This document shows, piece by piece, positions 1-59,090 of a stretch of 63,035 nt of DNA. The notes under the pieces are model-generated. The model was given only the letters and a program-made list of their open reading frames with translations, was not told the DNA's origin and made no database searches. The DNA lies in assembly GCA_016882195.1 (NCBI GenBank), contig VGLU01000005.1, forward strand, positions 1 through 63,035, given 5' to 3'. A program made the translations under genes and the position numbers. The stretch's first letter is position 1, and each line of letters starts with the position of its first letter. Source of the stretch: Thermoproteota archaeon. Lineage in GTDB: Archaea > Thermoproteota > Methanomethylicia > Methanomethylicales > Methanomethylicaceae.

Positions 1-142
1 TTTTTCTATTAGCCTTCAATCCACGAACCCTCTACCGATCCATATGCTAGGCGACGGCGGAGCCGATACAGCACTACACCGCCAGATCGGTGCACGTCTA
101 GTGAACGGATACCCTACCCGCAAGGGTAGGGTTCTTCATTTT
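1..142 (+). mobile_element. Truncated copy A of a short non-autonomous IS605-like repeat
   Basis: Positions 1-142 match 58948-59089 with one difference (A at 128, G at 59075). The window starts inside the element, so its left end is missing. Visible structure: stem accgatc/gatcggt (34-40 with 85-91) enclosing ggcgg/ccgcc (56-60 with 79-83), then a GCAA-capped hairpin ccctaccc/gggtaggg (112-131), then ttcat (135-139). A similar cttcat lies at the right end of the tnpB element near 56330. The element stops three bases before the porB stop codon. No ORF is present. I infer a non-autonomous IS200/IS605 derivative or a stand-alone guide-RNA-like remnant. Confidence 0.75.
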
Positions 143-25072: not shown

Positions 25073-25174
25073 TGGTGCGGCCGCCGGGAGTTGAACCCGG
25101 GTCCTCGGCGTTCTTCGGATTTTTCTATGGTCCATGGAAGGCCGACGTCCTAGACCGAGCTAGACTACGGCCGC
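25073..25174 (-). tRNA. tRNA-Gly(UCC) with one intron, CCA encoded
   Basis: Read on the minus strand from 25174: acceptor GCGGCCG pairs with CGGCCGC, followed by A73 and encoded CCA. The anticodon stem is TCGGC/GCCGA and the loop is CT-TCC-A, giving anticodon UCC. A 24-nt intron lies at the canonical site after position 37, starting TGGACCATAG and ending CGAAGAA. The mature length would be 75 nt before CCA. A TATA-like ttttaaaa at about 25199-25206 lies about 26-32 bases upstream of the 5' end. Confidence 0.9.
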
Positions 25175-26473: not shown

Positions 26474-26572
26474 ATAAATTATAAATTATCCGCAAGAAAA
26501 CTACCGACTTTAGGCGGTAGATGAATTGCGACAACCAACATTCTTAAATGCCTGTTGTGTAGATTAAGCAGT

Positions 26573-26962
26573 ATGGACTACAAGCGGGACAAGCACCATG
26601 TCTATCTAATCAACTATCACCTGATATGGTGTCCCAAGCGCAGAAAGAAGGTGCTTGTAGGTGCTGTTAAATCCCGCCTTGAAGCCATTTTTCATCAGGT
26701 TGCCAAGGAGTTGCATGTCGAAATACTGGCTCTCGAAGTCATGCCAGACCACATACATCTGTTCGTCTCTGCCTATCCTAACCTGTGTTTGCCAAAGCTC
26801 GTTGACTCCTTCAAGGGTAGGAGTAGCCATGACCTCCGCATCGAGTTCCCAGACCTGAACAAGCTTCCATCATTATGGACTCACAACTACTTCGTTTCCA
26901 CGGCAGGTAATGTCTCGGCAGAAAGGATCCAACGATACATTGAGGAGCAGAGCACACGATGA
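26573..26962 (+). CDS. tnpA: IS200/IS605 family HUH transposase TnpA
   Basis: 129 residues from ATG 26573. The HUH metal motif is PDHIHLFV, and the catalytic tyrosine lies in ERIQRYIEEQ near the C-terminus. HLIWCPKRRKKVL at the N-terminus is typical of Y1 transposases. All catalytic residues are present, so the element looks competent for peel-and-paste single-strand transposition. The stop overlaps the tnpB ATG by 4 bases. It is the only intact TnpA in the window and could act on the other left-end-like structures nearby. Confidence 0.93.
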   Translation: MDYKRDKHHVYLINYHLIWCPKRRKKVLVGAVKSRLEAIFHQVAKELHVEILALEVMPDHIHLFVSAYPNLCLPKLVDSFKGRSSHDLRIEFPDLNKLPSLWTHNYFVSTAGNVSAERIQRYIEEQSTR

Positions 26963-28143
26963 AGCCGATGGTCGTCTACCGCTTCCGTTTGTATCCAAGC
27001 AAGGCTGCCCAACAGCGGTTGTTCGACAGCTTTGATCGTTGCTGCTTTCTCTACAACTACTGCTTAGCGAACAACGTGCATGATGTCCGTATCCTGCCAA
27101 AGCTTAAACAAGAGCGCCCTGAACTCAACGATGTCCATAGCATCGTCCTCCAGAACGTGGTCTTCCAATTGCAGGATAACCTCCACGTTCTTCACGTTCT
27201 AAAGCAAAACGGTAAACATGTCGGCAGGCTACGCTTCAAGCCTCGTTTCCATTCAATGATCTACGAGCAGACGGGCTTCAAAGTAGATAACAAAACGCTA
27301 AAATTGAGCAAGGTTGGCTCGATCTACCTTAACGTCAGCCAGCCCGTCAAAGGCACAATAAAGCAGGTCATCGTGAAGTACACCAAAACTCGAAAGTGGT
27401 TCGCCTGCCTCGTCTGCTCCTCGGTCAACGGACGACCCCAGTCATCAACAGGTAGAAAAGTTATAGGCATCGATTTGAATGCATCCAATTTCAGCACCGA
27501 CAGCGACGGCTTGGTCGTGGAGCACCCCCGCAATGTCAAGAAAGCTTCACATCAGCTGGCTCGCCAACAGCGCAAGCTGTCAAGGAAGATCAAAGGCAGT
27601 CATAACCGCTACAAGCAGAGGCATAAGGTCGCAGTAATCCATGAGTCAATAGACAACCGCCGCAACGACTTTCTGCATAAGCTATCAAGATACTATGTCA
27701 ACAATTATGACCTGATCTGCTTAGAAGACCTGAACATAAAGGGCTTAATTCAGGTTAACGGCTCCTCCATGCGTAAGCTGATACTGGACGCTGGCTGGAG
27801 CAAACTCGCAGCACTATGCAAATACAAGGCTGAGAGAGCTGGTAAGCGCGTAGTGTTTGTGAATCCCAGAAATACGACCCAAAGGTGTTCTGTATGCGGC
27901 GAGTTGGTTCACAAAGACCTGTCCGAGCGAACCCATAGTTGCCCATTCTGCAGCACAGTGTTAAACAGGGACTACAACAGTTCCCAGAACATCCTTAACG
28001 ATGGATTAACAATGGTAGGGTGGGGCACACCCGAACCCTCCTGTCCTGATAGGAGTACGCTTGTAGAGATCAAAGCCTATACTCTTGCAGACGATAAGCA
28101 GGAGCAAGCATTGGTCGAAGAAGCAAGAATCCCCCGCCTTTAG
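26959..28143 (+). CDS. tnpB: RNA-guided endonuclease TnpB (IS605 type)
   Basis: 394 residues. RuvC residues are D172 (IGIDLNAS), E256 (LICLEDLNI) and D338 (LNRDYNSSQN). Zinc ligands are C310, C313, C328 and C331 (CSVCGE...CPFC). All three acidic residues are intact, so it is predicted active as a guide-RNA-directed nuclease that favours element retention. The guide RNA should come from the 3' end of the gene and the right end of the element, roughly 28000-28160. The region after about residue 345 is a low-conservation tail. Confidence 0.93.
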   Translation: MKPMVVYRFRLYPSKAAQQRLFDSFDRCCFLYNYCLANNVHDVRILPKLKQERPELNDVHSIVLQNVVFQLQDNLHVLHVLKQNGKHVGRLRFKPRFHSMIYEQTGFKVDNKTLKLSKVGSIYLNVSQPVKGTIKQVIVKYTKTRKWFACLVCSSVNGRPQSSTGRKVIGIDLNASNFSTDSDGLVVEHPRNVKKASHQLARQQRKLSRKIKGSHNRYKQRHKVAVIHESIDNRRNDFLHKLSRYYVNNYDLICLEDLNIKGLIQVNGSSMRKLILDAGWSKLAALCKYKAERAGKRVVFVNPRNTTQRCSVCGELVHKDLSERTHSCPFCSTVLNRDYNSSQNILNDGLTMVGWGTPEPSCPDRSTLVEIKAYTLADDKQEQALVEEARIPRL

Positions 28144-28160
28144 GCAGGGTGAGTGTCAAT

Positions 28161-58866: not shown

Positions 58867-58890
58867 GCCTCCAATTTTTTGATCTGTTTT

Positions 58891-59090
58891 TTATTAAAAG
58901 CTGCGAGAATACCGCACCCGCAAGGGTGCGGATGAATCGCACGCTTCTTTTTCTATTAGCCTTCAATCCACGAACCCTCTACCGATCCATATGCTAGGCG
59001 ACGGCGGAGCCGATACAGCACTACACCGCCAGATCGGTGCACGTCTAGTGAACGGATACCCTACCCGCAAGGGTGGGGTTCTTCATTTTT
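58891..59090 (+). mobile_element. Complete copy B of the short non-autonomous IS605-like repeat
   Basis: About 200 bases. Left end: outer stem tgcga/tcgca (58902-58906 with 58937-58941) and GCAA-capped inner hairpin ccgcaccc/gggtgcgg (58912-58931), the same nested plan as the two tnpB elements here. The linker atgaa-t-gc resembles that of the IS605 at 26521. The body (58948-59089) repeats positions 1-142 with one mismatch. Right end: hairpin ccctaccc/gggtgggg (59059-59078) and ttcat. The left flank has ttat (58891-58894), as at the IS605 left flank. No ORF. It is probably moved by a TnpA in trans. Confidence 0.78.

Follow-up and report, generated by a model that had tools for sequence, protein, structure and literature searches.

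A 192-bp repeat in a Methanomethylicaceae genome is very probably a non-autonomous IS200/IS605-family element derived from a tnpA-only insertion sequence

The window, that is, the whole stretch of DNA analysed here, comprises 63,035 nucleotides and is the complete contig C5 (G000:C5; VGLU01000005.1) of a Thermoproteota archaeon of the family Methanomethylicaceae. The genome (GCA_016882195.1) amounts to 1.45 Mb in 41 contigs, and its genus was represented by one genome in our comparisons. The repeat lies between the AdoMetDC and DUF1805 genes, in a region where AdoMetDC, DUF1805 and ProRS follow each other. The initial annotation placed it at 58891-59090 (copy B) as a 200-bp element without open reading frames, with a second copy at 1-142 (copy A). 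The window also contains an IS605 element at 26490-28159, which includes the TnpA at 26573, has TTAT as target and TCAA as right cleavage site. A tRNA gene model at 25076-25174 is unusually long (99 bp) and probably contains an intron. The features of the repeat are as follows.

1..139, + strand: copy A, a full copy of which the contig end leaves the 3' part; the 5' part is probably G000:C6:1-184 (- strand)
58890..58894, + strand: target and left cleavage site (C_L) TTTAT, retained in the left flank; TTTTAT precedes every left-end copy
58895..59086, + strand: complete element (192 bp), copy B
58902..58941, + strand: left end, with outer stem TGCGA/TCGCA, putative guide GAATA, inner hairpin and GATGAAT on the 3' side; DNA fold, same left end elsewhere
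58907-58911, + strand: putative left guide GAATA, 5' foot of the left hairpin
58912-58931, + strand: inner hairpin of the left end, CCGCACCC-GCAA-GGGTGCGG, from the DNA fold
58916..58927, + strand: left copy of the 12-bp direct repeat ACCCGCAAGGGT, where the deletion of the collapsed C1 and C19 copies ends and their halves join
58978..59032, + strand: degenerate remnant of the tnpA 3' end, IS200 type (YRSIC*ATAEPIQHYTA)
59054..59058, + strand: putative right guide (G_R) GGATA, 5' foot of the right hairpin
59059..59078, + strand: right-end hairpin CCCTACCC-GCAA-GGGTRGGG (R is G here and A in the other full copies)
59063..59074, + strand: 12-bp direct repeat ACCCGCAAGGGT, right copy, at which the same collapsed copies join
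59082..59086, + strand: right cleavage site (C_R) TTCAT, the final bases common to all right-end copies; same end in the related element L008

A search for further copies and for empty sites had been proposed in the initial annotation. With 58891-59090 as query, the genome yielded matches at C16:8985-9181 (99% identity), C6:1-184 (100%) and C5:1-142 (99%), and two further short matches on C1 and C19. Copies A and B were identical at 141 of 142 bases, as had been reported, with A at window position 128 and G at 59075 as the sole mismatch; among themselves, all full copies were at least 99% identical. The reported truncation of copy A is real but is caused by the contig end, since the window is the whole of C5. 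Exact-pattern counts gave five left ends and five right ends in the genome, of which one left end (the beginning of C6) and one right end (the beginning of C5) have no partner. The genes flanking these two halves are convergent neighbours in ten relatives, and in one of them (L100) their stop codons are ~16 bp apart. We conclude from the equal counts and the conserved neighbourhood that the two halves are almost certainly a single copy split by the assembler, which would explain where contig C5 ends. Both annotated copies thus stand, but the genome contains three full copies (at 58.9k in C5, on C16 and the split copy at the starts of C5 and C6) and two collapsed copies of 45 bp.

We considered whether the repeat could be an assembly duplication. 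Two copies at contig starts (C5:1 and C6:1) might suggest this, but they are probably the one split copy, and the remaining copies lie inside contigs with left and right flanks that are all different. We regard an assembly artefact as having a negligible chance of being correct.

The flanks of all copies were unrelated, and the common sequence started after TTTTAT and stopped with TTCTTCAT. The five insertions lie in unrelated places and have TTTTAT before them and TTCTTCAT at their end wherever those ends are assembled. Together with the empty orthologous sites described below, these unrelated flanks delimit an element of 192 bp (58895-59086), so that the annotated extent is slightly too wide: 58891-58894 belongs to the target and 59087-59090 to the flank. 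We take TTTAT to be the target because the same left-end motif is mostly preceded by TTTAT in other organisms. In a collection-wide search with the left-end pattern, the motif with this target recurred in Methanobrevibacter, Dehalococcoidia, Paenibacillus and others; a simple scan of those loci found no right end of the TTCTTCAT type with a hairpin.

In six relatives, AdoMetDC, DUF1805 and ProRS are present in the same order without an insert, and the gap between the matched regions of AdoMetDC and DUF1805 is 66-112 bp as compared with 315 bp here. The relative L091 has kept the target and the junction: it reads GTTTTTTAT|TTT, and our genome reads GTTTTTTAT|element|TTTT. To judge from these two junctions, the comparison shows that the L091 locus is an empty orthologous site and that the insertion 3' of a fixed short target proceeded without target duplication.

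A conserved housekeeping RNA gene or a regulatory element maintained in several copies would also account for copies that are nearly identical and for their location, since all three full copies are intergenic and one of them lies directly upstream of a tRNA gene. Against this, the orthologous sites are empty and the copies have unrelated genes as neighbours. Full-length copies were absent from all other genomes of the class and from 398 genomes across the phylum. This explanation is extremely improbable in our view. The plasmid and phage collections likewise gave no matches to the element. As a separate observation, the full copy on C16 (L002:1696-1810) ends 16 bp upstream of the tRNA-Asn gene and could affect its promoter.

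The left end had been described as IS605-like, and its predicted structure bears this out. As single-stranded DNA, it folds into an outer stem, a 5+5 internal loop and an 8-bp hairpin capped by GCAA (-18 kcal/mol; z -5.7). GCAA-capped hairpins had been noted near the right end; one is present there, but the left end has one as well. Close to its termini, the element thus has palindromes akin to the ones in IS605-type transposons; terminal inverted repeats are lacking. In IS608, the 5' foot of each hairpin holds a tetranucleotide guide, with which the cleavage site pairs (C_L TTAC with G_L AAAG, C_R TCAA with G_R GAAT; PMC5934647). By analogy, GAATA and GGATA at the 5' feet of the two hairpins are candidate guides for TTTAT on the left and TTCAT on the right. 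The T-to-C difference between the cleavage sites of the two ends is matched by an A-to-G difference between these sequences, which follows the IS608 pattern.

The interior gave a different picture. The arms of the annotated nested fold (accgatc/gatcggt around ggcgg/ccgcc) are present, but the fold was no better than that of shuffled sequence (z -0.24; 83 of 200 shuffles were equally stable), and we do not regard it as significant. The fold signal of the whole element stems from its two ends. The 192 bp are too short for a transposase gene, and the interior described as ORF-less corresponds to a degenerate 3' fragment of tnpA.

Of the relatives in which the sequence was matched, the nearest are species of Ca. 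Methanomethylicus, which belong to the same family. In Ca. Methanomethylicus oleisabuli (L008; MAGU01000060.1), a tnpA-only element at about 36-617 is preceded by TTTAT; its left end is 79% identical to ours over 57 bp, and it likewise terminates in TTCTTCAT. The left end also occurs in a second Methanomethylicus genome (87% identity over 61 bp), where on visual inspection the sequence after it resembles the 5' region of a decayed tnpA. The interior translation YRSIC*ATAEPIQHYTA aligned to the C-terminus FYRSIGSVTAETISHCIA of the L008 TnpA with a score reached by one of 3000 dinucleotide shuffles, and the nucleotide score against the L008 tnpA 3' end was attained by seven of 2000. The match has the right strand and order, and its distance from the end of the element is about 55 bp as compared with 52 bp in L008. 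In absolute terms the homology is weak (phmmer E 0.003 for six frames): a profile of the TnpA proteins of the class did not detect the interior, and only the closer L008 protein matched it. Given the strand and spacing of the C-terminal match and the matching ends of L008, the most fitting reading of the element is an IS200-type insertion sequence with an internal deletion.

The initial annotation offered two identities, a PATE-type MITE or a stand-alone unit that resembles an omegaRNA and lacks TnpB. The RNA of such a unit would serve as guide for a TnpB from another locus. The genome has many candidates for such a partner (21 TnpB matches), and in Sulfolobus islandicus TTTAT serves as a target motif for solo tnpB elements (PMC10640517). 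The interior, however, traces back to tnpA and not to the 3' end of a tnpB, and its fold does not exceed chance, so that neither the scaffold homology nor the stable scaffold of an omegaRNA was found. The sequence occurs at no other locus of the genome, the 21 TnpB loci included, and Rfam, which returned two tRNAs only, gave no match to the element. Comparison with the 3' ends of tnpB elements, proposed as a test, was carried out on the TnpB loci of this genome, none of which ends in the same right end. A guide RNA unit is therefore very unlikely. The right ends of the TnpB loci themselves have several different cleavage motifs. The imbalance between 21 TnpB (Cas12f1-like TNB) matches and one intact plus one decayed TnpA in 1.45 Mb means that most TnpB elements in this genome are without TnpA.

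Taken together, multiple near-identical copies in unrelated places (three full and two collapsed), a length too short for a transposase, IS605-type palindromes and insertion without target duplication make us confident that we are dealing with a PATE, a non-autonomous element of the IS200/IS605 family, which arose when a TnpA-only insertion sequence of the IS200 type lost internal DNA. Of the two proposed identities, the PATE-type MITE is thus the one that agrees with every sequence-level property considered.

The copies on C1 and C19 both read TAAAAGCTGCGAGAATACCGCACCCGCAAGGGTRGGGTTCTTCAT (45 bp) and equal a full copy minus the 147 bp between the two 12-bp ACCCGCAAGGGT repeats of the hairpins. 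One of them has R=G, as in the copy at 58.9k, and the other has R=A, as do the remaining full copies; this speaks for two separate collapse events, each in place. It is conceivable, but in our estimation improbable, that the 45-bp terminal-only copies are themselves mobile and that a hybrid hairpin, composed of the left half of the left-end hairpin and the right half of the right-end hairpin, is enough for TnpA. If so, they would be among the smallest IS200/IS605-type transposons. The sole putative guide left in these copies, GAATA, is mismatched to TTCAT, from which a failure to be cut would be predicted. The C19 copy (L006 around 1440-1560) directly follows an apparent IS605-type left end, GGTTCGAACCCGTGGATGAATGTGACAACAACC, and looks like one mobile element nested inside another. 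In the relative G021 we observed two terminal-only relics of the other IS605 family (L111, C68:43638-43677; L112, C79:56604-56643), with left and right ends fused at the hairpin loop and AAATTAT before both. Judged by this structure, they have collapsed in the same way as the PATE copies, here in a second family of elements.

In the initial annotation, the TnpA at 26573 was the only plausible mobiliser. It is the only intact TnpA, and the sole intact Y1 transposase, that we found in the assembly; one more TnpA is decayed, and a search of this genome for an intact parent element found none. The IS605 element at 26490-28159 resembles the PATE in the architecture of its left end (outer stem, internal loop with GATGAAT, hairpin) and in its TTAT-core target, and in this family cleavage specificity resides in the element's own guides (PMC5934647), all of which would allow the 26573 TnpA to act on the PATE. 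It differs in having an intact tnpA and tnpB, other hairpin stems and loops, and TCAA rather than TCAT at the right cleavage site, and the sequence ancestry of the PATE points to another TnpA. From the sequence comparison, the 26573 TnpA is not the parent of the PATE and belongs to a different element. Because the left end, right end and interior of the PATE match the Ca. Methanomethylicus IS200-type element, the claim of a sole mobiliser is doubtful, and present-day mobilisation by the 26573 TnpA rather than by an IS200-type helper seems to us possible but the less probable option. The decayed TnpA on C1, beside a collapsed copy, was rejected as parent: its C-terminus is different, and its match to the interior was no better than chance.

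For the PATE, we propose the following course of events. An internal deletion would have spared both subterminal hairpins, the guides, the cleavage sites and about 55 bp of the tnpA 3' end. A Y1 (HUH) TnpA acting in trans would bind both hairpins on single-stranded DNA and cut after TTTAT and TTCAT, as directed by GAATA and GGATA. The excised single-strand circle would then integrate on the 3' side of another TTTAT, and the target would not be duplicated. Later, some copies would lose the DNA between the identical 12-bp hairpin cores, leaving the 45-bp terminal-only relics.

The closest known parent copy is the L008 element, which shares with the PATE the target TTTAT, the left end, the TTCTTCAT right end and the tnpA C-terminus. 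It differs in its length of about 580 bp, of which the PATE lacks about 390 bp, and in its frameshifted tnpA. The L008 copy is itself broken, since its IS200-like tnpA has a tandem duplication around CATCGGACCACGTGCACTTGGG (L008:345-390).

IS608 of Helicobacter pylori (PMC5934647) likewise has subterminal hairpins and 5'-foot guides that covary with the cleavage sites, and it keeps its target on the left without duplication. Unlike the PATE, it targets TTAC and carries tnpA and tnpB, and for the PATE transposition is a prediction from sequence.

PATEs and core-deleted versions of them were described in Haloquadratum in 2011 (PMC3119063). Those of H. walsbyi (HqIRS46 and others) are also non-coding, lack terminal inverted repeats and target duplications, have near-terminal palindromes of similar sequence and occur in multiple near-identical copies. 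They, too, include terminal-only forms joined at the repeated palindrome, and some retain remnants of a transposase C-terminus. In HqIRS46, the core deletion occurred between 22-bp repeats and left 52 bp; whether these 52-bp forms are mobile was left open by the authors. The present element differs in its lineage, its unrelated sequence, its low copy number and its IS200-type (TnpA-only) ancestry, which can be traced to the genome of a relative. With these findings, the range of PATEs and of their collapse between repeats extends beyond haloarchaea to Methanomethylicaceae, in a clean case in which target, putative guides, boundaries and empty sites are all readable. They are useful for annotation and leave the general picture unchanged.
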